A stretch of DNA of 64,000 bases from Tubulanus polymorphus. Its lineage: Eukaryota; Nemertea; Palaeonemertea; Tubulaniformes; Tubulanidae. The translations under genes were made by a program, and so were the position numbers. The stretch's first letter is position 1; each line of letters opens with the position of its first letter. The notes beneath the pieces were generated by a model. That model saw only the letters and a program-made list of their open reading frames with translations. It searched no databases and was not told the origin of the DNA. The DNA is taken from NCBI RefSeq assembly GCF_964204645.1, contig NC_134035.1, forward strand, positions 9,052,501 through 9,116,500, read 5' to 3'. Shown here piece after piece: positions 2,613 through 61,872 of the stretch.

Positions 2613-4520
2613 AACCACCCAAACCACCCTCAACTATCTATAGTACCTCACCTTACCCTAATCCTATCCCTAGGGGTAAAACAGAACCCTCTGGACCCTC
2701 TTCTCACCCTCTTGACACTAACCCTATCGAAAATAACCCTAAACCCAATATAATGAGTTTATTGTTTAGTTAATACTATATATAACATTATAGTAAATAA
2801 TGTACTGTAAAACTGCGCAAGTAAATACTTTGCTTAACACGGTTAAATTATTTAACCAATTCGTTTTTTTGCACTGTACGTGTACAGTACTGCACTGGTG
2901 TCACTGACACTGACAGTTTGATTTGAGTTTTGACAGTGAAAAAAAGGAAAGACTGGAGGAATCCACTAAATATAAAAAAAGTTAGCCGACAAATACTTAC
3001 ACCTCGATGGCCCAAACAACAAGCAATCAGACGTATGGACACAAATTAAGGACAAAAACAACGTTACAAATGTCACAAACGTAGCCATTCCTAAACTTGT
3101 CAACTTGTGACATTTGTCAAAATTACTTCCTGGTTGAGAAATGGGTAGCTCCGAGAATATCCACATCAGGGGAACCAATCCAATTCAATTCGATCTATAT
3201 CGCGGCGGGCGCGATATCGGCGAAACCGCCGGCGCATATATAATGTAGTTTGTGGTCGTCATGCAAAAAATTCCGACACGATGCGATAATTGTACCGGGA
3301 ATTGTCATTCTAGATTAACCCAGAGCTTCATTTCTACCAAAGTAGAACACTACCTTTAAAAGGCAGTATTTTCGCAATCCAAACAGAAATTCGCATATTA
3401 AGGCAATTTTTTGGTTGAAAGAGCCACAGCTATACTATACACTTCAACATAAAAGCATTAATCTGAGAGATAAAACTACAAATTCACTCTAAAAAGCTTA
3501 AGATTAACAGATCCATCTTTAATTTCATTTTAATTGACATTATTTTTATTAGAAAAATATAATTTAGCAAAATTTGCCTCGTCTTAACTTAAAGATTTTG
3601 AAACACTATATTCGCTTGAAATACGTATTCTTACGTTTTTTCTGCCAGCTCTGAAAAACATCAAAATAATTATACTATCAATAAAAAGTCAACAATGATA
3701 TCGATAATTTTAAGTTTAACATTCGTGTAAATTGTATCACCCAGATTTTATTCTCCGGATTACCCCTAAAACAATTAATACGAAATGCCTGGTTAGTATT
3801 CTAACACGCGACGAATGCCGATGAATACTCATTCGCCATCTATCAGACTTTCTCATCACCACAACCTCAACTATCTAAAAGTAAAATCCTATAGTACTTC
3901 GGCGTATCGCCCCATTAATCCGCAAATATTCTATTTTCATATAACAAATATAGAAAGTCCTACCGGATAGTTGAGCTCATTAGAGCTTCGAATAATCTGT
4001 TTTAAATGTAACCGATTATATGAAAAAACGGACAAAGAGAACAAAGAAACTAGCATCGACGGAGCGGTTACTTGTTTGTGTATTTAGTTCTATTTATAGT
4101 CGTTATTTTATGGGAGCATTTCGGGTAAGTAGTTTTCCCAGGATTCAAGGGGCTCAATGCCTTCCTAAATCATATATATCCCCGAAGCGAAAGTAGTTTT
4201 CTCGAATGTAAACGTCGTTTTCGTCAAGTTCGTCATGTTGATGCGACGGGTATTAGTGTACGAGAAGGTATTAACGTTAGGAAATGAAGGCACTGATTAT
4301 GTCGCCATGACATCTCCCAACCTCCCAAAACTGCTACCACCAGGCGTCGATGTTTGTTGACGTTGTTGAAAATTACAGCCAACAACAGAATCTCAATTAA
4401 CTCAAAAAGTCAATCCAGATTCAAGTCTTACTCATTCTCAACATGTGTATTGCGCAATGACTACTCATCAAATTTGCTGCAGTTGCTCCATTTAGGCCTG
4501 ATGGCCCCGGCTTCAAGTGT
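2613..4520. other. No gene recognised
   Basis: AT-rich sequence without an ORF of convincing coding character. A GC-rich patch at about 3195-3235 (CGCGGCGGGCGCGATATCGG followed by CCGCCGGCGC) stands out from its surroundings, and a short hairpin at 3064-3118 pairs AAATGTCACAA with TTGTGACATTT. Neither can be assigned a function. Confidence 0.4.
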
Positions 4521-43000: not shown

Positions 43001-46000
43001 TGAGCAATTTTGGATATCAATCAGCAATGGAGGGGTTTAAGCAAAGAAATATTTCATACCAAATCACTTTAAACTGAAAAGACTTCACTACCTAGTATGA
43101 GTTAACTGAGCTGTTGATACAAGTAGAAGATAACACAAATACAATCAACCCCCGATATACCGCCCACATCGGTGCAGAACGATTTTGGCGGTACATAGAG
43201 TATGGTGGTATATGGGGGGTGTTTTACTATGTATTTGTATAGAGATGTACATTGAGAAAACCTGGCGGTAGGCGAGGGTGGCGGTATAGACTATATTAAC
43301 TGTATATATTGACTGTAGTGTTGAAAAGCAACATCGTTCTAGCCACTTAAAATCTCTCTTCGACTTTCAGAAAAAGAAGTCAGCGAATTACTTTTGCCGA
43401 GCAACAACATCCGATCGTTACCGACCGATATGAGAAAATTGCGCAACCTAACGAAACTCGACATAAGTCGCAACGGTATCCGGTGCACGGGTCCCAACGA
43501 TTACGGAGGTATGCCGAGCGAGATGGAAATGTTGACGAAACTGGAAACGTTGATCATGGCCGAGTGTAATTTTCGTTACATCCCGCCAGTCGTCTGGAAA
43601 TTACAAAGTCTCCTATATCTGGACATCAGTCGTAATAAGATCAACGCGTTATCGCCGGACGTCGGCAATCTTTACAAACTGCGTCGTTTGAATTGCCAGG
43701 AGACGAACATCTCGACGTTGCCGCCGGAGATCGTCTACTGCGACGACCTCGAGGAGCTGCTGCTGTGGGGCAACTCGATCGAGACGCTGCCCGAAACGAT
43801 GGTCGAAATGACGAATCTCGAAACGCTGGCGATCAACGCGCAGGGATTCACGCAACTCGTCGACTCGTACATGGAAACGCTGTTACAAAAAGGACAAATC
43901 CAGTCGGAGCACGTGCCGGCCGTTCTGTTCGAGATCCCGAAATTGAAAAAGCTCGATCTCGAAAACACGATGATCAACAACATTCCGTCGAGCGCCAATC
44001 GAACGCTACGCGAGCTCTACCTGAACGGCAATTTCTTCTCCGAAATCCCGACCGCCGTTCTCAACATGGCCGCCCTCGCCGTGCTCGAAATATCTGACAA
44101 TTACCTGAAAGCGATTCCGCACGAGATTCAGCTCGCCACGGGTTTGAAATCGCTGAAAATGAACAACAATCAAATCGAGAAATTGCCGAAAGCCGTCTGT
44201 TCGATGACGAGTCTCGGGGTGCTGGAATTGGGCGGCAATCGTTTGCAAAAGTTGCCGCGCGACATCGGAAATTTGCGGCATTTGCGCAAGTTGATTCTCG
44301 ATCGAAACGAACTGCGGATTCTTCCCGATTCGACGTGCGATCTCGCGAATCTCGACACGCTCGACTTGACCGCGAATCAAATCGCCGAACTTCCGATCGA
44401 CATGTACAAGCTGTCGTCGTTGACTACGGCGCATTGTTACCGCAAACTGTTCAAACACGGACTGTGGCTGCACTTGAATCCGTTGACCCTGCCGCCGGAA
44501 CAAATCTGGAAAACCGACAACCCGAAAAACATCTACGACTACCTGAAACGATGGAAGATTCTGAACACGGAGAATCTTCAACGTCTGAAGGTGATAACCG
44601 TCGGTGAACATCAGTGCGGTAAAACGAGTTTACTGAAATCGCTCGAATCCGGCAAATCGTATTTGACAAAACCTGTCGTCGATAGCACGGAGGTTTTCGC
44701 TCAGATGCACGGGCAAACGCCGAATAAAGTTCGGTTCTCGTTGTGGGAACTCGGCGGGCACGAAGCGTATCAGGTGACGACTCCGCTGTTTCTCGGCGAC
44801 AAGTGTTTATACATGCTCGTCTACGATCACGCCGCGTTTCGACCGGACAAGTTCAACGCGGCGATCGGTCAGTGGTTGAATCTGATCACGACGTACGCGC
44901 CGGGGAGCGTCGTCAAAATAGTCGGCACGAAACTCGATTTGCGCGATGAGGCAGACGGAGAGAATTTCGAAGCAGACGGAGGAAATTTTGAGGCAGACGG
45001 AAAAAGATTCGAGGCAGACGGAGAAAGATTCGAGGCAGACGGTGAAAGTTTCGAGGCAGACGGTAAAAGTTTCGTCGACACGAAATCACGAATAGTTAGA
45101 CGAATGATCGCGCGACATCTAAACGAATGCGAAGACCAACTGAACGAGACTTTGAATCGAATCCTAAAACTGATCGACGACGGTTCCGACGACACGACTA
45201 CTTCTCGAAAACAACTCGAAAATCAGCGCGAACGACTCGAGTATCTGATCCGCAATCCGTTACGCGTCGAATCGCGGATCAATCTCGTAACGTCGATCGA
45301 AGGCACGGCTGGAATGAACGCATTGATATTCGACCTGGAATCGCTGATCATACGGAAAGATCTATTCCCGCACAATCAACGCCACGTTCCCGTTTACTGG
45401 AAGAAACTGCAATCGCGTATCAAACAACACGACGGTCACTTCGTGACGATCGAACGCGTTCGCGACTACGCGCGCGAGTTCAACATCGTCAACGCCGACG
45501 ATCTGAACCATTGTCTCGCGCACCTCGTCGATATGGGCGAGATTATCTGGAAGTCGGACGACCCGCGTTTGAACGACTTCGTTTTTCACTCGCCGACGAA
45601 ACTGGCCGCCGTTCTCGCGTGTCTGTTCCGCCACGACTTCGACGAGTATTTCGACTTCGATCGTAATCGCGTGTTCACGTGTAAAGGTCTCTACGACGAC
45701 TACAACGACTTCACGAAGGCGAAAGACGACGTTTTCACGCACGGCGAAATCCCGCGTCCGATTCTGCGGTGTTTGTGGTTTTATTTGCGTCTGCGCGAGG
45801 AACGATTCGTCGAGTTGTTGGATATTTTGTCGTCGTTGCGTTGCGCGTACGTCGTGCCGCAGCCGACGATCACGACGCCGACGAGTTACCGCGAACCGCT
45901 CGTCGTTCTACCGTGGTACAACACGGACGTACAACCCGAGAACCTCGACGAATTCTGGCCGGCGAACACCGGCGAATCGGAAGCGCGCGTCGAGTTTGTA

Positions 46001-49000
46001 TTCCCGATCGAATTTTTGCACGGCGTCTTCGAACGGATGTCCGTGCAGCTGCAGGAACACGTCGACGCGCGCATCGACTGGCAGGATCTAGTTTACGCGA
46101 CGTACACCGGGGGGAGCTTGCTGCTACAGCGCGGACTACAAATCGACACGTACGACTTGTCGATTCAGATCGCGATTCGCGGCGAAAATGAAACGATTAC
46201 CGTCGAGAAACTGAAAGATCTCGCCGAGATTATGAGAGAAATGTTAGAAAGGCGACCGGGGGTTGTTTGGTACGAGTATTACTCGTCAAATAATTGTGAT
46301 ACGCATATAGCCAGGTACTTAAACAGCGATCTAAATAATGAAAGTTGATCATTTATATTAGGTTTGTAAGTTCAGGGGTGGATCACCGTTCAGGAGAGGA
46401 AGGTGTCTACTTTTAAACACAATGATTTTTTAGATCTTCTATAATTGGTCAAACAGTAATTGGCCCGATGATGGCTAGAAGTATTTAGCCGAAACTTTGC
46501 TCGAAATATACATCATTTTACTATAGAACTTTCTCTTTTTTTGGCTGAACCTATTGTGGGATTTTTCTCAGTATAATAACTGCTTTAAATACATACGAAC
46601 TTAACGATAGTACATGCGTGCGCTGTCGTTTTTCGAAACGTTCCACGCTTTAAATGTCTTACCTGAGCGTAAAACGAGAAAATCCGCAGCGATCGAAACG
46701 GTACGAAGAACAGGAAAGGAACGATGATTTCGATGACGAATACGATCGCGACGCCGAGTTTCTGAAACCATTCCGGAAACTGATGAGCGTACCACGCCAG
46801 CGGTGTAGGAATACACTGCGATTCGTAATGATGCAACAGAGCTACAAATAACAACAATACACCCGGGTATGAATTTCATAATATGAAAACTTCGTCACAA
46901 AGAGTCCGTGAAGATAACTGGAGCTAGTGGTATATTCGACGTTTACTGAAGATGACTACAAGGGCAGAGCTAGAATTCTTTGAAGGGGCTGGCCTGAATA
47001 TTGGAGTGGGTACTTAGATTGAAAAGGGCATATCATTGGAATATTGGTGGGGGTTCCGATGGCCATCCAACAGAAAATCTAGGATGAAAAAGGAGTCAGG
47101 GCCCTTGTGGATTTATTTTCGTCTTTCTTAAACTTTTCTTCGCAAAAATTTTTTTTTTTGAAATTGAAGGGGGTGTTCCAGTCCACCCCCTAAATCAGCA
47201 CTTGGATTATCAGGATATAGTTTGAAATGTTTCGTTCGGTTTATTCAACATTTTAAACTGTTTTTTCCCTCTTTTATGGTGGAATTCCTGACTTATCACG
47301 GATATTACACTATTTTTACAGAATTAACCCGACTATTATAAAGAGAAGAAAATTCGCTGTCTTTTCCTCAGAATAATACCGGTACATGTGATAGGGAAGC
47401 CACTGATTTTTCCATTTGATTACACAAAATCCTTTGAATGAATCAGAGAAATATCTTCTTTGTTGAAAAATGTCAATTTATTCATTTCTCATGGTGCTCA
47501 ATAGCATTACCAGAATTCCCAGGTTCGAGGTAAAATTATTCAAATTCCCTGATTTTTTTCTAGATTTTTCTGATTCCCTGAGTTTTCCAGGTATTTCCAG
47601 ATCAGTGGCCACCCTCTATTTAATAACAAGAAATATCTAAGACCGTCATCAAATACCTGTTAAACCCCACCACGTAGGGCAGCCGCTCGTTAGCTTAACA
47701 ACTCCAGACGCGAACATCAAACGAAACAGTAACCATTTAACGAGCCACATTGTTATAGAGTCGTGATGGTGATAGTAAGAACACGAGAAACGGCCGAGTT
47801 TCAAATTCATCGGAGCGATGAGAATCGTTAGGAATCCCGCTTCCAATATCAGACTATCCCTAGAAAACAGAACCAGACGATTTCAGATGGAAATTCAAAT
47901 AACAATCGTAGATGATACAGTTCCACAGTTGTGAGTTAAGGTTGACTCGGAAATTTAGTTCATTTTGAATGAGTTTACAGTCAAATCTTAACTCACAACT
48001 GGGCCCTAGTATCAGATTGAATGAGATAACAGGTAATGCTTCGAGGTTCACGTTTACCTGGTGAAGCTATATATGCTATAAATGAAATATCGTGATTTCT
48101 AATAAAATCGGTTAACCTAGAGGTACTTGTTTTCAAATTCAAATAATTAATGTATCAAGTTAGAAGTAGCCTTTGTTTAAATGAATTGATAATTTTAGAC
48201 TCATTAGACTTTCATGACAGATTTACTGTACTCGGTTAACTGTAATTGTATAAACAAAGTGTAGATTATGTATTCGTAATATTCATTATAATTCAAACAT
48301 TAAAAACTTACCATTGGAAATAGAGAAACGTTTGACCAACCTAAAACAACAATCAACGATATCGATTTAATCAAAAGTCATTTCCGAAATTTCTTGCAAA
48401 AGGAATAAACTGTTTATCATTATTTGACGTGAAATGATACTGAAATGATTGTGGCCGTGAGTTGAGATTTGAATCTCGAGCTTAAACATTGAAAATAAAC
48501 TCATTGAACTTTTTGAGTCGAATTCTACCAGGGGCTGTAGATGACTTCTTAGCTTCCTTCTTTGAGTTCCATTATATAATTGTGTTCTCATGACTAATGA
48601 CACGCAGTTCCGTAAAAACGAGAACTCTGGAACTGTTGGCAATCATTCCCTATTTGACTTCGCTAGTACGCCATATTGCAGTATATTTAAGTTATTAGTA
48701 ATTAGTTTTTATCTCTATTGTAAGTTGTCAACACACTAGGATGGAATTTTTCAAATTATCTCTTTCGGATATTTATCAGTCAGTACTGAAAACGTTAAAT
48801 CCATGGAGAATTTAGTGTAACTCTCAAGACAAATGCGCAAATTGTAACGGAATCAGAATTGGTTCTTCAATTGGTTCTTCAGACCACTGTTTACATTTAC
48901 CTGATACAAAGAGAAGTATAGAACCCATAGTATGACGAACCCGACGCATTCACGAAACGATTTCGCAATCAACATGATGAACGAGAACAGAATACCGATG

Positions 49001-50990: not shown

Positions 50991-53900
50991 TCATATATCG
51001 TCGTGAGACGGAACTCGGTATCCTTCCAGTTCCTCGTGATGTCGTTTCAGTGATAAAAGTTTCAGCGATACTGAATCCATACCGGACTCCGATGAGTTTT
51101 CATCAGTAGAGATTTGTAGGTTATAATTATTAGCCTGAAAATATAAAAGATGAATTATTAATTCATCAAAGATGAACACAAGACGAACCATGCGCCACGC
51201 CCTAAATAACAAGGAGGCCACTTTCCATCCATTTACTAATTCCCTGAGTTTTTTCCTGAATTTTTTGTTATAACACAATTCCATGAGTGAATCCAAGAAA
51301 TTTCTAGGTTGAAAATGTCATGTTACAATTTATTCATTTCTCATCCCTGAATTTTCCAGGTTTTAGGTTCAATTTGTCAACGTTTCCCTGATTTTTTCTA
51401 GATTTTTCTGATTCCTTCAGCAATCCAGTCTTTCAAGTCAGTGGCAACCGTGAATAACCAATTTTCCCCCTACTAACATTACAGAGATGCACAAAGGGCT
51501 TCACAAATCCCCCTGCAAAAAATTCCTTATTTTGAAAATTCCTATGAAAGGATTAATTAAGACGACTAATAAGAAACTACGAAGTTTAGTAACAAAAGGA
51601 TATTGACATTAGAAATTATTTCTTGAATTATTTTCTTATTTAGAAATACTTCTACATCATGCACTGCCCTGACTATTTCCCCAACCCTTCCTAATTTCTT
51701 TACAAGAGGTTCCTTGCGTAATTCATTACCGGTACCAGCAAGAAAACCTAGACAATTTTCATGATTTTCAAGAAGAGTCGTTATTAGATATTTTTGAAGA
51801 AAATATGCAATTTCTGAAAGTGAGTGTTGTTAAAAAATTTGCAATCTTTGATTCGACGAAAAGGGGAACCTTAAGACCCGAGACCACCCCCCAAAATTCA
51901 CTTCTGGGAATTGAAACGCGTGTCTAGTAATGTGTGATGCGTACCAGTTGTAACGTAGCGGCGAACAGGCGACAAACTTCGTGCGGCGTTTGAGTTTTAG
52001 CGATGTCGTTAAACGACACCGATCGCGATTTAGTCGGGAAACTTTCGAGAACGGCGCTGCCATACGAGTGAATATCGAACGCCGGGCGAGTTTCCTGCGA
52101 AATAGAAATACAAAATTATTCCGATAAAACTAGCAGTATTTCAGTAAAACTATCATCAACTGAACCGAAAAATGTCGAACGAACCTCTTCTTCTAGTTTC
52201 GGGACGACTTTATCTTCCCATTCACCGACTCGCTTCGATAATTCAGTCAATTCGGCGAATTTCTGAGCACTCGTCAGAAATTCATCCTACGAAATAAGAA
52301 AACATACATCGAGGTTATGTTCTGTTCCCTACCAGCTTGGAAAACAACCCATATGGGAATCATTCACTTTACATCCACGTAAAATATGAATTTTTCAACC
52401 CCTCATGTATGCAATAACAGCCATTTTTCATACACATTATTTAAGCATTACAGTACGCAATTGCACGGACCCCTCCACATCCCGTAATGTGTACGTAATA
52501 AATGAATGACTCCTGCAATCCCGCGTAATTCAGTTATGAATTTCTCCGAAATTTTATTATCTGGGTCCAAAGTTTAACTAATTTTTTATGTAATTGCTAT
52601 TGGTTACTTCATATTTTCAATGAGGAAAACGATTCAAACTTAACCAATTTTGGATTAAACTTTTTTTCATGAAACTTGGCCCGGTACTTACCACATATTT
52701 TCTAACCAACTCCTCGTACGATTGCGAACACAATAAATCAGATTGCTGCGAGAATAAATCATCGTCGATTCGAGCTGCGTTCACGGCTAACGGGTCGTCG
52801 TGAATATCAACCGCCGCGCCGACATCATCAAAATCAACAACATTATCATCATCTCCGTCATCGTCGTCAGCGGCATCTAATAATAACAACAGTTCAGAAA
52901 GAACACAAAATATAAAATCAAAGCTTCTCGTAACGATGGGCATATTCTTGAAAAAAATACAACTTCCAACGCAGCTAAATCTTAATGACCTGCAGGTATA
53001 CCGAGTTAAGACTGAAAAGAGTCTGATGACTTCGGTTAAAGGGTCGTTACTTTCTCATGTCGATCCGATGAGCTTTCGGTAGATTTTACACTCATATATG
53101 GCCTGGTATCACTTGGTGCTAGTTCCCTTCAACGACAGACCAGCTCACAAATCATACCAGGACACATACAGTATAATCCTTACGTCTATAATATCCTGAT
53201 TCAACGATAGAATAGACGCCAATACATCGGCAGCACAACACGATCGTTTGCGGCTTACTTGTCCGTAGAGTTATAGGGTATGAATGTTTTCGATTGAGAA
53301 TTCAAATTCGAAATATTTACCCAAATATTCAGGCTCCGTAAATCTCGGTTCTTCCTCTTCTTGCTCATAAACATCGACAGCGTTGGCTCCATAATTGTTC
53401 TGAAATAGTTCAAACCACAAGCTTATAACAGTCATAACGAATCACGGAGATATTTGTATCAGGGTCCCTATAGATCAGTCATTCCTGGATATAAGGAGAA
53501 AATCTCACATTTCTAGGAAGTGTCTGCATCCCTTAGTTTCATACTGTAGATTCTTAAATCAGTACGTTTTATATGGGTAAACCGTTAATTCATGGTTTAG
53601 TAAGCAAATTTTTATTCTTACGACTACCTAAACTCGATAACTAATATGGCAAAAAACAAATCCCAACTATCACAATTTAAGCATAGTTTACTGTACAACT
53701 ACTAACTAGACAAATATTTCTAATTGCCTATTTCTCAAAATTGAAGGAGTCTAATTATTCCTCACCGAACGAACCCCTTAAAGGAGTTTCAAAGGAATCA
53801 AGAAGTCGTAGGGACCCTGTATGATGAAAATGTGTAAAATACAAACCCGAATCAATGTTTTCAGTTGTTTACTGATCTGTTGCCGGCGCTTGTATTCGGT

Positions 53901-56900
53901 CCAATAAAGACGTTCGAACCCTGCGTACGACGGAACCTTTAACGCATTACTCGTGAATTTTGATCTATGCGAATCTGTAAACGACAAATGAATGAAATTC
54001 ATCATCGCGATAAATTCTTCAGAGCTTTCATTTTCTTCTTTAAAACTATTTTCATTCAGAAATATTCCGATATTTTTCTATACAGTAGACTGCGCTTGCA
54101 TCCAGCGAATGCAGGACTGAGGATTTTCCAAGACGCAGTTGAAGCAGGGATGAGTCGTTATCTGACGAAAAATCTGAATTAAGAAAATCTATACATTTCA
54201 TATTGATATTCAATCTGTCGTCCGGAGCATGTGCGATAATCTGATGTAACAAATCCTACTAGAGCCATCCATGAATATGAAGGTCAACAGTTGCCTGAAG
54301 CCCTAGTATCACTTGGTGCTAATGTGAGTAAATACAATTAGCCCACAAGTGATATTAGGACCCGAGAAAATGTAATAGAACTGGCAGAATGAATGGGGAA
54401 CCCAAAAAACCAGCTCAACAGATGGCGTAGCGAGCAGTGGGTCTTTTGGTGTCAAAATGCGTTCATTTTCAATGAACTTTGAACTGGACTCCTGAATCCT
54501 GATATTATCACAACACCCACCAAATATACAATTCTCTCATTCTTCCTACTCGGATATCGGTATAGTTTTCATGAAAAATTGATTCATTTTAGGAGAAAAT
54601 TTCATTCGGATTTGATTGAAATGTAGAAGGAATCGAACGCTGACGACCACCTACAAACTTGGCATATGCTCGGAATCCGCAATTGCCACTGTAGCACTCT
54701 GGGTATGCAACCCATCGTCGATTATCTATGGGTCATTCCTGGTATCATTTGGTGCTAGTAAATTCATCTAACCACCACACAAATCATATCAGGAACAATC
54801 TCACAAGAGAAACTACTATCATAACTCAATTCTATTTTCCTAGCTAAGTGGTGAACTCAAATGCATTGCTCTTCACACTTTCCTCGAGATGAAAAGAAAC
54901 GGTAAATTCCTGGTATCACTTGGTGCTAGAGTTCCCTATAATCGTCCAGAACACACAAGTTATAACAGGAAAATACACGTTTCTGTCGGGGGAGCAAAGT
55001 AAAACCTAGAACAGAATCCAGTTGTTGAGAGTATTCTAATCTTTCAGCCCTGGTATCATTTGGTGCTAGCTACTTATTATGATTGATGCTATCACACAAA
55101 TGATTCCAGGCCTGATAGAACTAGTAGCACTAGGTTCCTGCTATCGACGTACATCGGCTAGCATGTGCCCTGGTATCTCCTGGTGCTAGTCGTCTAGTAA
55201 CACACACTATCACTCAGGATATAACAGGCCACTAACTATTAGCTATCGCCCAATAATAATATTCACTACTAACTATTCATTCTAATATTTGATTTTCCAT
55301 AATTCTCCGATTGCTCTACAATCCAGTTATTCGAGTCAAATACTAAACCGTCGAATTGACATGAGAAATTCCAACCCGAGGATTATAGGATCAGCGAATA
55401 TGAGAGCACTAGTCCTGATATCACCTGGTGCTAGTATACCGTCTAATCGACTAGCACACAGATTATATCAGGATCAGGACACCACACTCTGAATCCTATT
55501 CTGAGTATAGTAGAATAACCATTTTTTAACATCACCCGACGATGGTCTCTATAGAGTCCGAAACATTATGTCTTTTGTTTTAAACTTATGACAAATAAAA
55601 CGTTTCTTATCTTTATAAGAATTTTGTGTAAGAATTTTGGGGGTTTTAAACTTATTATGGATTGAGAGAAAATCCACATTTTGTCCATATTTTAGTCATT
55701 GTACTTACAAGCTTTAGAGAGAAATTGACAGAGAGGAACATCCTTAGTCGGTTTGACGTTTCTGTCGCTTTTCTTATTTGTTTTCAACGCAGCAGGAATC
55801 ACCAGTTTCACTGAAAACAAAAAGGTCAGTCGGAAATGTAAGAAGCATATATAAATCTTAGCAAGAGTCTTCGATAAATAGACATTACCTTTCTTGGGAG
55901 GTTTCTCTTTTTCGACAGTCGTTTGATGAGGATCGAGTAGTTGCCAAAAATCAGTTTTCTGCAATAACATATCTTATGATAAATAACATAATTTACTGCA
56001 ATATTCAAGACTTCCAACTTTAGTGTTCAAAATTAATTGAACAATGAGCGTCTAAAACTAACATGGAGCGGTTGTTTAACTTACCTTTGATTTAGATGCA
56101 GTGGCGTCTTCAAGATTAGATGTAAACTGTACTCGTTTACGACGCAGCTGCATGTGCTGCTGATTTGCATCGGGCTACAAACATAAAACACACCAACATG
56201 AACCCTCTACTCAGGGTGGCCACTATCCGTCCATTTAACAAATACAGTGACTATTCCAAGGCAAAAATGTTGTTTTTTTTCCCTGATATGACTCTATCGG
56301 CTAAGAATCCAATCAATGAACACAGTCAAATATGTTAAACAGACGGAAAATTTTCGATCTTATTGACAATATAGCAATCTCAGTAAATTTCCCCTTTTCC
56401 CCTGATCTTAAGCTTTTTTTTCATACAAAATTCCCTGAATATTCCCCGATTTCCAATAAAGAGGCCACCCTGCTTCATAAAACCATTTATTCGTTCCCCG
56501 TGAGAAAAACCTGGTCATTTTCTTCAGAACTTACTAGTTCTTGATGAGGAGCCTCATTGACAGAAACTTCCGCAGCCGCCGCTGGATCTGGAATTTCATC
56601 GAAATCCCCGCCGCCATCGTCATCATCGTAGCGATCATCGCCAACATCATCCGACCGAACCTCACACACTTCATCATTTCGCATGACGTCACCCGTAGAT
56701 GGCGCCGATATTGCCGTCGTTAACTGCGTCGCCGATGACGATTCTTTCAACAATGATAAATGCGACAGGTCTAGAATCAGCGATCCGATTCGTAGAATTT
56801 CCGACGTGTTCATTCGGAAATCTAAACGACTGCCAATTAATTCTCCTTTACGACTGTAAATACGAGAAACACTTTAATTAACGCATTATCTACGCGAGAC

Positions 56901-58955
56901 ACAGGCTTCGCGGATCACAAAATCCTTAACTCAGATATTTCCATGACCCTTGACCAAAAATTCCCCGATTGAACTATCAAATATCGCCAGGAGTGATTTT
57001 CTCAAGAGGCAAACTCTAACACCAGCTGGAGAGCGGGCGGTTAAAGAAATAAAGTCCAAATATGGAGAGGCATTGTGGAGAACGACTGTAGACTGGTTGC
57101 CTGTCAAATTCTGAATCTAGACTGGTTGCCAGTATAATAAGTTAAGCGTTACGTTGAATGCGTGTCTTTCATCGCACATCAAGAAGTTGTTCCCAAGAAA
57201 TTCCCCAATTTTCCATGCAGGGAAAAGTATCTCTGGTATTCCATGATTTTCCCTGATCTGTTAAAACCCGGATGGGAATTAGACGAGTGAGAGAGCGATG
57301 ATTAACAGAATTACCTGATTAATGGATTATCACTTTTATCAATTGCATCTATCTTTACAAGCACCATCGGAGTTCTAGTTAAATCTTTTAATATTCCCTG
57401 AAATCATCGAAAGTTAAGTGTAAATTGTAGTTTTGTTCATCGGCTTAAAACTACTGATATTTCTACTATCAAAACTGCGTAGTTGCCTTAAATTAATTCT
57501 TAAGTTAATCCAGAACGGACCCATCTACATCTAAACTTACCAGAGTTCCATCTCTTAAATCGATGTTATTTTTAGGCGCCACATCATCAAGAGTTAGAAA
57601 TTGCTCTTCACCATCGTCAGCATCATCAGCAACGTCATCCCCATCATCTCCTCCACCGGCCGTGGCGCCTGCTTTCTTTCGGTTATTCTTTCTGAATTAG
57701 ACAACAACAATTTCATATTAAATATTCGTTTAACTTTAACGGTTTGCTTTCATAATTTCGGTTCATAATTGCTTACTGCGTCGCGGTGACCATCTCTAAA
57801 ACTTTACACACATAACTGTACAAGTACTCAACCTGCAGGTACAGAAACAATTATTAAACATTTGATTCCAATTCGATTCAAATATCCCACCAAAAAATTC
57901 AACAACTCTAAGAGTTAATCAGGGTGGCCACTGTTATTTCACTTGTTTTTCCCCCGACTATTCCCTGACATATATCAGCTAAGGATCCGATCAATTAACA
58001 GTTAAATACATAAGACATAGACATAAACTATTTAATTTTACACGTGATAATTATCCCTGACTTTTAAAAATATATTTCCATTATTTCTAGCTCCGACTAT
58101 AATTACACCTATTTGTATCATTCTCACCTAATTGATTTGAGTGAGGTGTACTGAATTATCAAAAAGTTTCTCAAATTACGAAGAAAAAGCCAAGCACAAA
58201 CCTTTTTGCTATAAACACAAGCCGAGCCTTGTATGAGCATCGCCGCCTCGGCAAAATTCACCGTAGTTTTCCCTCCATCAAACGATATCTGAATCTGACC
58301 GACCTGTGAATGAAACTCATATTTTTTTATCTCACAAAATTATACGTCGAATGGGGAATTTTGTCATCCTTGATCAAATTCAATACTTTTCGATTCAACT
58401 TTGAATTCATTTTCATCGATGTCTATTTTTACGGCAAAATTCTAATAATACGCAAAGAATCGAAGAACAAGTCGATGTTAATAGGAATCTTCGATCCAAG
58501 CTCGTCTTCCAATAATCCTTTCCCTCAATTTTTCAGGGATGAAAATATATTGAAAAAGTCGGAAAATATCCCGAATTAGAGCCGCTTTTCCAATGAGACG
58601 CCATATTGGTTTCTTCGACTCCACAATTGTGCTAACCAACGCCAAAAACTGTCTTAAGGAGCACTCCTTAAGGGGCTCCGATATGACGTGCGTGATTGAG
58701 GCGATTTACACTGATCTCAGGAATGACGAAAATAAAAGAGAAAGTCGGCAATCCGTCTATGGTTGGAAGATTTTCATCCCCGATTTTTAGATTTAATTAA
58801 CGATGATGATAAAATGTGGGAACCTGTTGAAGGTAGTCGTCTAATTGCTCCGCTATTTGAACGTTCCAATTTTCGTTCAGATCGCGAATGATCGGATGCA
58901 TCAACTGAGCGAGATGCCCGGCTGCATCACCGCCTGCCGCTGCAGTTTCACCCAT
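50991..58955 (-). CDS. NCAPH2: Condensin-2 complex subunit H2 (kleisin beta)
   Basis: Fifteen coding exons, 5' to 3': 58824-58955, 58202-58303, 57777-57832, 57541-57691, 57315-57397, 56535-56853, 56085-56174, 55889-55958, 55709-55810, 53847-53974, 53321-53399, 52692-52876, 52185-52286, 51945-52094, 50991-51134; 630 aa (human about 605). N-terminal condensin II H2 block: [20 protein letters not shown], then [35 protein letters not shown]. Acidic linkers and a FWQLLDP box follow, then [30 protein letters not shown] and a C-terminal [25 protein letters not shown]2 bridges SMC2-SMC4 with the HEAT subunits D3 and G2 of condensin II, which compacts mitotic chromosomes and acts in the interphase nucleus (established). 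A candidate 5' UTR exon ends near 59651 (CAGG|GTAAGT). Introns 9 and 11 hold seven miRNA-like hairpins on the same strand. Confidence 0.96.
51220..51450. repeat. MITE of the 'cctggaaaa' family, reverse
   Basis: GGAGGCCACTTTCCATCC, TCCCTGAGTTTTTTCCTG, CCTGAATTTTCCAGG, TAGATTTTTCTGATTCC, CAGTGGCAACC. NCAPH2 intron 14. Confidence 0.6.
53102..53161 (-). ncRNA. miR-29-seed hairpin 1 (candidate pre-miRNA)
   Basis: On the minus strand a 60-nt hairpin: 5' arm CCTGGTATGATTTGTGAGC, 3' arm TAGCACCAAGTGATACCAGG. The arms pair over about 15 positions with one mismatch before the loop. The 3' arm starts with the miR-29 family seed (AGCACCA at nt 2-8). NCAPH2 intron 11 (52877-53320), separate from the other six. 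Confidence 0.75.
53460..53815. repeat. Reverse copy of the 11925-12310 repeat family
   Basis: ATAGATCAGTCATTCCTGG, AAGTGTCTGCATCCC, TAAACCGTTAATTCATGG and TTTCAAAGGAATCAAGAAGT. NCAPH2 intron 10. A similar diverged copy lies at 33370-33665 in LMF2 intron 12. Confidence 0.6.
54302..54359 (-). ncRNA. miR-29-seed hairpin 2 (candidate pre-miRNA)
   Basis: Minus strand: 5' arm CCTAATATCACTTGTGGGC, 3' arm TAGCACCAAGTGATACTAGG. AAGTGATA in the 3' arm pairs with TATCACTT in the 5' arm, the most perfect stem of the set. First of six in the 53975-55708 intron counting along the plus strand. Confidence 0.75.
54738..54793 (-). ncRNA. miR-29-seed hairpin 3 (candidate pre-miRNA)
   Basis: Minus strand: 5' arm CCTGATATGATTTGTGTGG, 3' arm TAGCACCAAATGATACCAGG. 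The AAAT of the 3' arm faces ATTT of the 5' arm, a change on both sides relative to hairpin 2. Confidence 0.75.
54909..54969 (-). ncRNA. miR-29-seed hairpin 4 (candidate pre-miRNA)
   Basis: Minus strand: 5' arm CCTGTTATAACTTGTGTG, 3' arm TAGCACCAAGTGATACCAGG. Seed arm identical to hairpin 1, with a different 5' arm and loop. Confidence 0.75.
55049..55110 (-). ncRNA. miR-29-seed hairpin 5 (candidate pre-miRNA)
   Basis: Minus strand: 5' arm CCTGGAATCATTTGTGTG, 3' arm TAGCACCAAATGATACCAGG. AAATGAT pairs with ATCATTT. Confidence 0.75.
55169..55228 (-). ncRNA. miR-29-seed hairpin 6 (candidate pre-miRNA)
   Basis: Minus strand: 5' arm CCTGTTATATCCTGAGTG, 3' arm TAGCACCAGGAGATACCAGG. The AGGA of the 3' arm is matched by TCCT in the 5' arm, a clear compensatory double change against the other copies. 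Confidence 0.75.
55414..55472 (-). ncRNA. miR-29-seed hairpin 7 (candidate pre-miRNA)
   Basis: Minus strand: 5' arm CCTGATATAATCTGTGTGC, 3' arm TAGCACCAGGTGATATCAGG. The outer stem CCTGATAT/ATATCAGG is perfect, including the T that replaces C in most other copies. This is the first hairpin in transcript order, 237 nt after NCAPH2 exon 9. Confidence 0.75.
56213..56478. repeat. Repeat of the 'gtggccac' family
   Basis: CAGGGTGGCCACTATCCG, GGCTAAGAATCCAATCAATG, AAGAGGCCACCCTG. The ends CAGGGTGGCC and GGCCACCCTG are inverted repeats. NCAPH2 intron 6; a shorter copy is at 57920-58065. Confidence 0.65.
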
Positions 58956-60780
58956 CTTCGTCGTTCGTTCAAAATTCTCGTCTAAAAATGAATAGCAAAA
59001 AAAACACACACAATTATCATTCGTTATTCTTAATCACGAAAAATGGATTCTAAAAGATATCTGATGTAAAAAGCTGATAATTCAAACAGAGTATTACGTA
59101 TCACAAATATTAGAAGTATAAACGTCGAACGGACAAGTCCGGGTCGTAGTCCGAACTTTGAAACGAATTTCGCATCGGAGTTCTAATCGTAATTAATGAT
59201 TCTACAACCTCAAATACGGCTTCATTTTTGTGACCAATAATTCGTCAACATTAAGTCATACCAATATCTCAAAATTACAGCGTCAAAAAGCGGGAAACTT
59301 CGCGAATATCAACCGCATAATTCGCGGTCTGCACATCGGGCGCCATTTTGAATATCGCGGTGTTTGGACTGGTTCCGCGACGGAAAATACCGAGACTGGT
59401 TCCGCTCCGAAAAGAAGCGCGGATTTCTACGCGATTGCGGATCACTTATTCAAGACAGATTTTTTCAGACAAACAACACTCTAATTAGGATAGATAAGGA
59501 TAGATTTTAATTATTTTTCAAAATTTATAATCGACGAGAGTAGATAGCTTTGGAAATTAATGCGCGCACGGATCGGACTACTGGTCGCACACTCGCTTGC
59601 CACAGAAAATAGAAATCCCTTCAAATAGTACACAATCTAACTTACCCTGGCTACGCGCTTTTCAGGCTTGTAGAGGGTGTTTCTCGGTTGTTTTCTTCAG
59701 CCTTTTCCTCTATATATGCTAAAAAATAAAATTCAATCGGATTGATATAATCAGATGACGCAAAATACACGAGATTTCGAAGTCGGGTTTTCACTTACTG
59801 GTATTTGAAGTTACACACGATTGAAAGCCCTTTAAAAACCATATCTAACTGCCTTGGCGATTAATTTAACTAATACTGACAGTATAAATCCCTCAGACGC
59901 CCGTTGAACCGACGGGAGTCGACGAGAGTTCAACCAGAATGAAAATCAACGAAAAGAATTCATTACCGGAAACAACTTCTCCACACTTGATAATCCTAAA
60001 ATGTGGATATCTGCAAATGGCTCTATGCCATATAAGTCCAAGAGACGTCTTGTGTGTCAACCGGCCATAATAAATATTTTTGAACTTTTTTCCAATACTT
60101 TGTTCCCCATATTGTCTTTATAGTCATTAATGAGCTATTCGTTTTGCATTTCGCGTATCAAAATAATACGGGTTCGAACCCTGAAGTTCGCGCATGGACG
60201 TTGGTCACGCTCAATGAATGTGGAGCCCCGGGGAAATATGAACCGTGAAATCTGCGTCAAAACGTGCCGTCAAAACAAACAGTGAAAAAGTGATTTCAGA
60301 TGAAAAATAGTTAAAATCGAACTCGGGATGCATGATTATTTCATGAGCTGGTTTTGACCAGCTGCTGGGTTATGCCATGGTCGAGGAGGATGAGTTGGGG
60401 GGTTAAGCCCAAAGAGGGACTATCGGGCTAAATCAGGAACGAAGTGACACCGGATCGGAGCGGAACCAGACTTGAGGCTTAATTTTGAAGGACTTGTCGC
60501 ATCCTAAAATGGGCACATTCATGTCGAAGCAGGCAGCATTGGATCCAAATTTGAGTTCTATGATTACTCCCGCGCTGAAATCCACCAACCCAATTATCTT
60601 TGTTGTCTAAAAAGGCACTCAAAAATGTGATGGACTTCACGTCCTCCTGCTGGCCTAGGTCCGCACCTGCACATCAAATGAAGAAACAACACTATTTTTT
60701 CAAGTTCGTTAGGTTCTCCGTTAAATACTTCTGGCAACAGTTAGAAACAAATTATCTATATGAATTATGTTTTCAGTACG
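58956..60780. other. NCAPH2-MEI4 divergent intergenic region
   Basis: The two genes are transcribed away from each other. On the minus strand AGCCAGG|GTAAGTTAG at about 59645-59655 is a good donor for an NCAPH2 5' UTR exon, and TTTTTAG at 58981 is a matching acceptor 25 nt before its ATG. GCGCCATTTTGAATATCGCG at 59340 is a YY1-type GCCATTTT site. A B-box-like GGGTTCGAACCC at 60170 and a dispersed repeat at about 60440-60670 (GGGCACATTCATG... GGTCCGCACCTGC) lie nearer MEI4. No other gene seen. Confidence 0.5.
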
Positions 60781-61872
60781 ATGGATGCTACAGATGAAGA
60801 AAATGAACACACTCCAGTGCATACTGACGTCTCTGAGGCTGATATACACGAGGTCCTATCGATGAAAATAGCCACAGCAATCGCCATCATATCTCTGAAA
60901 CCAGACGGACTGACAGGCGAACAATACGCCCGAATCCTCTTTCAACAGATGCACGATCGACTCGAGAATATGACGAAAACATCGGCGACGCGTGAAAACG
61001 AGGAATTCGAACTGCGTCTTCGAGTGGAAGATTTGGAAAAACGACTCGGCGAGGAATCCGCAGTACCAGCACCAGCAGCAGCCGCAGTTGATTGCGATGA
61101 ATCACTGTCGACTGTCAGCAGCCGCGTGGCACGAGGTCCTCGTACGTTTTTCAAGAGCTATCAATTCTTACAGACTTATTCCAAACTCAGTCGATCGGAA
61201 CAAATATCGAAAGTCGAATCGCTCGACGAAAATTTGGCGACTATTTTCGAAATTATTCGCCGTTTAGTAAACAACGACGATCCGGAGAATCGGGAGCGAG
61301 AAACGTCGTTTAAGGTGATGAATCGCGCGTTGGTGATAATCGCAGAAACGACTAAACTCGAAAATGCGGATGACGTCGTTCAGAACGCGATGATATCACA
61401 CATTAATAGATTCCTGGACGAGCTCATAACGACGCTTTACGAACAAGACCCATTCGATGAAAGTTCGTCGTCGTCATCATCGCCCGCCGTCGATAAACAA
61501 TTCCTCGTGAATTTAGCCGGGATTTTAACCGGTTGTTCGGCCAGAGTTTTCGTGCGTAGTTTCGAGGAAATTCTGTCACGAATTGGCGAATTCACGAACG
61601 AGCTGCGCGAATGGAAACGAGGCGAAGGCGCTGCTGAACGCGAATTGGACCCGGTTCGTTGCGAAAACGTTTACTACTTGATGAAACTGGGCGAAGATTC
61701 TTTACGCGCCGTTTGTGAAAATCCCGATTTAAAGCGCGCTTTGAGCGACGAAAAATTTGCCGAATTTCAGAATTTAGCCGACGATTGTTTACTGCACGTA
61801 TCGGACGAGTTTCCCATGTTTTGCTGTTGCATGTGGACGTTACAAGATTTAATGGAACGAATTAGAAAATAG
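60781..61872 (+). CDS. MEI4: Meiosis-specific protein MEI4 homolog
   Basis: One exon, 363 aa from MDATDEEN (vertebrate MEI4 about 385-390 aa). Family blocks: N-terminal helix MKIATAIAIISLKPDG (vertebrate LALALAxIxSKP); central FLQTYSKLSRSEQI...ATIFEIIRRLV; CENVYYLMKLGEDSL; and the C-terminal VSDEFPMFCCCMWTLQDLM, matching the SDAFPLFxxYLWR end of vertebrate MEI4. MEI4 forms a complex with REC114 and, with IHO1, lets SPO11-TOPOVIBL make programmed meiotic double-strand breaks (established). A TTTTCAG just before TACGATGG suggests that a 5' UTR exon is spliced on; an upstream in-frame ATG at 60760 would add only MNYVFST and lies before that acceptor. Low-complexity runs (APAAAAA, SSSSSSS) sit between the blocks. 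Poly(A) signal AATAAA at 62039. Confidence 0.85.
   Translation: MDATDEENEHTPVHTDVSEADIHEVLSMKIATAIAIISLKPDGLTGEQYARILFQQMHDRLENMTKTSATRENEEFELRLRVEDLEKRLGEESAVPAPAAAAVDCDESLSTVSSRVARGPRTFFKSYQFLQTYSKLSRSEQISKVESLDENLATIFEIIRRLVNNDDPENRERETSFKVMNRALVIIAETTKLENADDVVQNAMISHINRFLDELITTLYEQDPFDESSSSSSSPAVDKQFLVNLAGILTGCSARVFVRSFEEILSRIGEFTNELREWKRGEGAAERELDPVRCENVYYLMKLGEDSLRAVCENPDLKRALSDEKFAEFQNLADDCLLHVSDEFPMFCCCMWTLQDLMERIRK

Follow-up and report, generated by a model that had tools for sequence, protein, structure and literature searches.

MicroRNA-like hairpins with the miR-29 seed in introns of nemertean NCAPH2, and a large family of related hairpins in the same genome

Expanded microRNA arrays are a known kind of locus, and the best-known examples of very large microRNA families come from the embryos and placenta of vertebrates. 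In fish and frogs the examples are miR-430 and miR-427: Xenopus laevis carries 33 copies of mir-427 over 55 kb, the zebrafish mir-430 precursors are said to number more than 2000, and these microRNAs clear maternal mRNAs (PMC10569791). Within the Spiralia, the annelid Capitella teleta has a tandemly duplicated microRNA cluster (CAPTEscaffold_488) for which high expression in the early embryo has been reported and which the authors compared to miR-430 (PMC8915122). Mammals have lineage-specific expanded clusters as well, among them C2MC, which lies in an intron of its host gene Sfmbt2 (PMC6346411). Here, we describe seven hairpins with the miR-29 seed in introns of NCAPH2, the gene for condensin II subunit H2, within a stretch of 64,000 nucleotides from the nemertean Tubulanus polymorphus (NC_134035.1, positions 9,052,501 to 9,116,500; hereafter the window), together with their relatives elsewhere in the 267.8-Mb genome.

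How does this family relate to the systems already described? With miR-430 and miR-427 it has in common tens to hundreds of near-identical precursors and tandem multi-hairpin units, although such units in many copies are a property of an array on another contig (labelled C5) and not of the window cluster. It differs from them in its unrelated sequence and seed, in its antisense intronic arrays and in its dispersed outposts in sense introns. The Capitella cluster is likewise a spiralian tandem microRNA cluster; compared by description only, it may be the same family or an independent one. The mammalian Sfmbt2/C2MC and C19MC clusters are also lineage-specific expansions, but they have other seeds and are imprinted placental loci, whereas the present family spans several host genes. 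No paper among those searched describes a family this large in which the miR-29 seed occurs together with two derived seeds and some members are dispersed in sense introns of replication and mitosis genes; a prior description is possible. Nor was a paper found that quotes the longer mature strings, and the few matches to the short string UAGCACAGG seem, judging from their titles, to be irrelevant.

Seven hairpins in two NCAPH2 introns

The window contains exactly seven copies of the 8-mer TAGCACCA, all of them on the minus strand (53114-55433), against 1.09 expected; seven copies per window were reached in 0 of 100 shuffles. Each copy is part of the 3' arm of a minus-strand hairpin, with z scores of -3.8 to -7.0 against 300 dinucleotide shuffles. 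The surrounding gene is recognized by Pfam domains on separate minus-strand exons (CNDH2_N at 58.1-59.0 kb, CNDH2_M at 56.5-56.9 kb and CNDH2_C at 51.9-52.1 kb), and the 56.5-kb exon weakly matches the solved condensin-2 subunit H2. Consensus splice sites, read by eye, bound exons at about 55.9, 53.84-54.04, 53.3-53.4 and 52.65-52.88 kb, which places six hairpins within an intron at about 55.88-54.05 kb and the remaining one within an intron at about 53.3-52.88 kb, all seven in the sense orientation of NCAPH2 (Table 1). The initial annotation had placed seven hairpins, all the same way round, in two NCAPH2 introns, and had described an invariant 8-mer amid differing loops and flanks; its coordinates and orientation are correct, and a hairpin forms at all seven places.

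The pattern of conservation, which was measured among paralogues, follows the hairpin. Pairwise identity among the seven copies is 0.86 in the 22-nt 3' arm and 0.72 in the 5' arm, and falls to 0.22-0.30 in the loop and 0.24-0.30 in the flanks, in agreement with the initial description. The 3' arm is conserved over about 20 nt, well past the 8-mer: UAGCACCA[AG][AG][UA]GAUA[CU][CU]AGG. The consensus stem has 24 pairs, with 92.9% of cells paired in the seven copies, and 11 of the 24 pairs have changed on both sides, values matched by 0 of 500 shuffles; the structure was derived from the same seven-sequence alignment, which favours that structure. Shifting the pair partners by 1-3 columns abolishes the covariation signal. 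Much of the compensatory change falls below the mature duplex, in a basal stem whose sequence is not itself conserved. By MirGeneDB-style standards, at least 16 positions are paired between the arms, the loop is at least 8 nt long, and, among paralogues, a conserved mature arm is accompanied by a divergent loop.

A further set of features concerns processing by Microprocessor. The CNNC motif of animal primary microRNA transcripts (pri-miRNAs) lies 16-18 nt downstream of the Drosha cut. Given a mature length of 22 nt and a 5' end at U1, both of which are assumptions borrowed from miR-29, CNNC is found 16-18 nt past the predicted cut in five of the seven window hairpins (expected 0.78; p = 3e-4). 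It is likewise found in 24 of 45 non-redundant hairpins of the wider family (expected 4.4), in 20 of 36 when hairpins with similar flanks are filtered out more strictly (expected 3.7), and in both canonical mir-29 hairpins of the same genome. Because the motif played no part in finding the hairpins, it constitutes a separate check. When the 45 hairpins are aligned on U1, mean pairing drops at about +33 to +36, which leaves a lower stem of some 11-13 bp beneath the predicted Drosha cut at +22. The hairpins combine a stem of about 35 bp with, in most cases, CNNC at 16-18 nt, as expected of a Microprocessor substrate.

Which strand is the functional one? The plus strand, antisense to NCAPH2, could in principle yield 5p products of the CCUGGUAUCACUUGGUGCUAGU type, since sense/antisense microRNA pairs exist and the plus-strand hairpins also beat their shuffles (z = -1.8 to -6.1). 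All seven window hairpins, however, have lower folding energy on the minus strand, and the stem cells, read on that strand, contain 14 G-U against 2 A-C combinations, an asymmetry that fits selection on minus-strand RNA. Considering that the CNNC placement also fits the minus strand, and that the main arrays of the family keep their TAGCA-3' hairpins on one strand, a functional plus strand is highly improbable, and we rejected it on energy, G-U asymmetry and CNNC placement. The sequence thus strongly supports the prediction of microRNA-like hairpins that lie in introns, run the same way as their host gene and have a miR-29 seed on the 3' arm of the minus strand.

Table 1. Predicted hairpins and their host gene in the window (window coordinates; dG, folding energy; z, score against shuffled sequences)
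Feature	Position	Strand	Predicted 3p mature	dG	z	Remarks
pri-miRNA-like hairpin 1	53091..53172	-	53100-53121	-38.1	-5.85	CNNC at +16-18
hairpin 2	54291..54370	-	54300-54321	-30.6	-6.25	CNNC present
hairpin 3	54727..54804	-	54736-54757	-28.8	-5.16	CNNC present
hairpin 4	54898..54980	-	54907-54928	-31.7	-4.81	CNNC present
hairpin 5	55038..55121	-	55047-55068	-38.2	-6.99	Rfam mir-29 36.0 bits, E 2.5e-5 (gathering 46.7); no CNNC
hairpin 6	55158..55239	-	55167-55188	-32.2	-3.76	CNNC present
hairpin 7	55403..55483	-	55412-55433	-35.7	-4.27	Rfam mir-83 33.7 bits (gathering 44); no CNNC
host gene NCAPH2 (condensin II subunit H2), approximate extent	51924..59033	-				Pfam domains on separate exons; splice sites of hairpin-flanking exons

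A genome-wide family of about 270 related hairpins

The window (on contig C11; contigs are labelled C1, C2 and so on) holds only a small part of the family. A 20-nt mature-arm pattern of the UAGCACCA type, with at most one mismatch, has 64 sites in the genome, against 0 for the reversed pattern. Besides C11, these lie on C1 at about 8.02 and 29.82 Mb, on C4 at about 25.61 Mb and on C5 at about 3.30, 17.81-17.85 and 18.04-18.05 Mb, along with a few isolated near matches. In addition, about 200 sister hairpins have the shifted seeds UAGCACAG and UAGCACAU; the UAGCACAU-type pattern has 59 sites, and one UAGCACAG subtype has 96. A fold scan recovered 246 hairpins, comprising 154 of the UAGCACAG type, 52 of the UAGCACCA type (both canonical mir-29 hairpins included) and 40 of the UAGCACAU type. 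The genome-wide site counts rest on pattern searches, and the total of about 270 related hairpins is an estimate that merges fold scans with patterns. The initial annotation, which spoke of a seven-copy cluster, was right about the seven copies but understates the extent of the family: there are 64 such sites, some 200 seed-shifted relatives and two canonical mir-29 genes. An isolated near match, TAGCACCAATGGATATCAGG, lies within a long stable hairpin at C2:31834828-31834847 and may be an extra single member or a chance resemblance. Two other candidates were rejected: the near match at C2:21402065 has no microRNA-like hairpin, and the TAGCATCAGGTGAGAGCAG motif repeated on C15 comes from a tandem repeat of about 96 bp that is unrelated.

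The bulk of the family resides in two tandem arrays, both antisense in introns. The first (C5:17813892-17847713) lies within DYNC2H1, between exons that match the solved cytoplasmic dynein 2 heavy chain construct at residues 3838-3906 and 4111-4179. Its tandem units of about 917-1005 bp are about 98% alike, and each contains about five hairpins, whose 3' arms mostly start with UAGCA; the three seed types recur in a set order along the array. The second (C5:18040874-18053367), a more diverged array of the same family, lies between exons of an RCC1-repeat, HERC-like gene. Another 39 hairpins, rich in the UAGCACAU and UAGCACAG types, are found at C1:29823082-29833284, between POLR3E-like and JMJD4-like genes on the same strand (named by eye). 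The dispersed sets have sense orientation: in addition to the NCAPH2 hairpins, the 8.02-Mb set on C1 lies in XPO4, whose exons match exportin-4, and the C4 set lies in LIG1, where a DNA ligase N-terminal domain follows further downstream, also on the same strand, and N-terminal exons around the hairpins were recognized by eye. Since these dispersed sets (C11, C1 at 8.02 Mb and C4) hold the UAGCACCA type only, that type is suggested to be the older form of the family. The seed versions into which the family has split would be expected to silence different genes.

Repetition on this scale raises the question of whether the hairpins are simply miniature inverted-repeat transposable elements (MITEs) or a foldback satellite, spread through the genome without any small-RNA function. 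The many copies and the near-identical C5 units are what such an element would produce, and arrays of this kind can spread neutrally. It is difficult, however, to see the window copies in this way: they are alike in their arms only, with loops and flanks at chance identity, unlike a copied element, and MITE or satellite origin was rejected for them because the likeness does not extend over the whole length. Moreover, neutral spread leaves the basal-stem compensatory changes and the CNNC placement unexplained, and in the fold scan nearly all TAGCA hairpins of a given cluster lie on a single strand. We consider this account improbable.

A second alternative is that the hairpins feed small interfering RNAs (siRNAs) or serve as precursors of a PIWI-interacting RNA (piRNA) cluster. 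The tandem arrays in DYNC2H1 and the HERC-like gene, being antisense in introns, do recall some siRNA and piRNA sources. The stems, by contrast, are short and imperfect, are as long as those of microRNAs, and show CNNC and an unvarying 5' register; conservation in the arms comes in separate blocks of about 20 nt. All of this makes such an origin very unlikely.

Relation to miR-29

If the 5' end is assumed by analogy with miR-29, the sequence AGCACCA at nt 2-8 of the 3' arm of the window hairpins is the miR-29 seed. The miR-29 family (RF00074 mir-29 and RF00812 mir-83) and the window set have the seed, the arm and the register in common, along with a partial UGAAAUCAG match past the seed; they differ in the distinct 3' half of the window set (GAUACCAGG), in its Rfam scores below gathering and in its location in NCAPH2 introns, and the present family as a whole differs further in its massive copy number and its sister hairpins with shifted seeds. 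The genome also retains canonical mir-29 hairpins, UAGCACCAUUUGAAAUCAGUUU and UAGCACCACUUGAAAUCAGUGC, in tandem at C3:26638060-26638332, with starts 186 bp apart; these score 62.1 and 46.4 bits in Rfam, one copy above the gathering threshold of 46.7. A covariance model of the seven window hairpins in turn detects a canonical mir-29, with a score of 22.7 bits and an E value of about 0.009 in 185 kb.

The main rival to descent from miR-29 is that these are genuine microRNAs of a novel family, in which the AGCACCA seed arose by convergence. The sub-gathering Rfam scores and the weak similarity of several copies past the seed are in keeping with convergence, as is the fact that the sister hairpins with other seeds have only UAGCAC in common. 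Convergence would have had to reach the same arm and the same 5' register as miR-29, and also the UGAnAnCAG motif past the seed that miR-29 shares with most window copies; in addition, the window model reaches canonical mir-29, and the Rfam E values are 2.5e-5 (mir-29) and 0.001 (mir-83). We regard convergence as possible but doubtful. The initial annotation had offered membership of the miR-29 family or mere possession of its seed; the seed on the 3' arm of intronic, co-oriented, microRNA-like hairpins stands, and family membership is probable but unproven, given Rfam scores below gathering and a modest match beyond the seed. Taking together those scores, the model match and the agreement past the seed, descent of the window hairpins from miR-29 is likely, although not established.

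Several observations weigh against the view that we favour. The best Rfam scores, 36.0 bits for mir-29 and 33.7 bits for mir-83, fall short of their thresholds of 46.7 and 44, and agreement with miR-29 beyond the seed amounts to 6-9 of 14 positions (p = 0.002-0.23, depending on the copy), which is weak for some copies. The conservation was measured among paralogues only. CNNC is absent from two of the seven window hairpins (5 and 7), the opposite-strand control has it in 9 of 45 (the cut position there is approximate), and the CNNC p values are somewhat optimistic since some of the non-redundant hairpins are still related. With these points counted, we still hold it very likely that the seven elements are microRNA genes, older dispersed members of the family of about 270 hairpins that probably arose by duplication of miR-29.

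Some other features of the genome and the window may be recorded here. A mir-71 hairpin lies at C3:4556669, with the miR-2 sequence UAUCACAGCCAGCUUUGAUGAGC 1.3 kb downstream on the same strand; mir-71 followed by miR-2 is a protostome arrangement, and a tunicate origin, considered at first, was rejected on this ground. The string TGATAGACAAAAGTAGTGAGA occurs dozens of times across many contigs (for example at C1:14065651) and is a dispersed repeat that resembles mir-71 by chance. No close match to the bantam pattern was found in the genome, and TTAGGG repeats lie near several contig ends, a feature that speaks against an arthropod or a nematode; a spiralian fits best. Searches with COX1 and glycosyl hydrolase 6 yielded no match and are uninformative. 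Within the window, positions 43343-46345 of the plus strand hold an uninterrupted open frame of 1001 aa with leucine-rich repeats and Roc and COR domains (a ROCO protein), and positions 60745-61869 of the plus strand hold a single uninterrupted frame of 375 aa that matches the meiosis protein Mei4 (Pfam E 3.9e-11).

A possible mechanism and its significance

The proposed pathway runs as follows. The seven hairpins would be transcribed within the pre-mRNA of NCAPH2. Drosha would cut each of them about 11-13 bp up from the base of its stem and Dicer would cut next, and Argonaute would take up the 3' arm, UAGCACCA(A/G)(A/G)UGAUACCAGG, to repress mRNAs with UGGUGCU(A) sites. Duplication of miR-29 would have given rise to the sense sets in NCAPH2, XPO4 and LIG1 introns and, separately, to the large tandem arrays, within which drift would have turned the seed into AGCACAG and AGCACAU. 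Because these arrays are antisense to their host genes, they are probably transcribed from promoters of their own. By analogy with miR-430/miR-427 and with the Capitella teleta cluster, we hypothesize that expression reaches a very high dose in the germ line or early embryo.

In its broadest and most tentative form, the proposal is that a protostome may have turned miR-29 into a system of about 270 genes and three seeds, with antisense arrays in long introns and sense copies in LIG1 and NCAPH2, genes of replication and mitosis, and in XPO4. Its products might be made in large amounts in the germ line or the early embryo and there remove maternal mRNAs or adjust their level, as an independently evolved counterpart of miR-430/miR-427 in which seeds diversified within the arrays. 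A three-seed family of this size with the miR-29 seed, in a protostome that keeps ordinary mir-29 genes, offers a clean system for the growth of arrays and the origin of new seeds within an array, and it bears on whether arrays of embryonic microRNAs arose more than once. With the Capitella cluster alongside it, the idea of a spiralian system of maternal clearance by microRNAs becomes directly testable.

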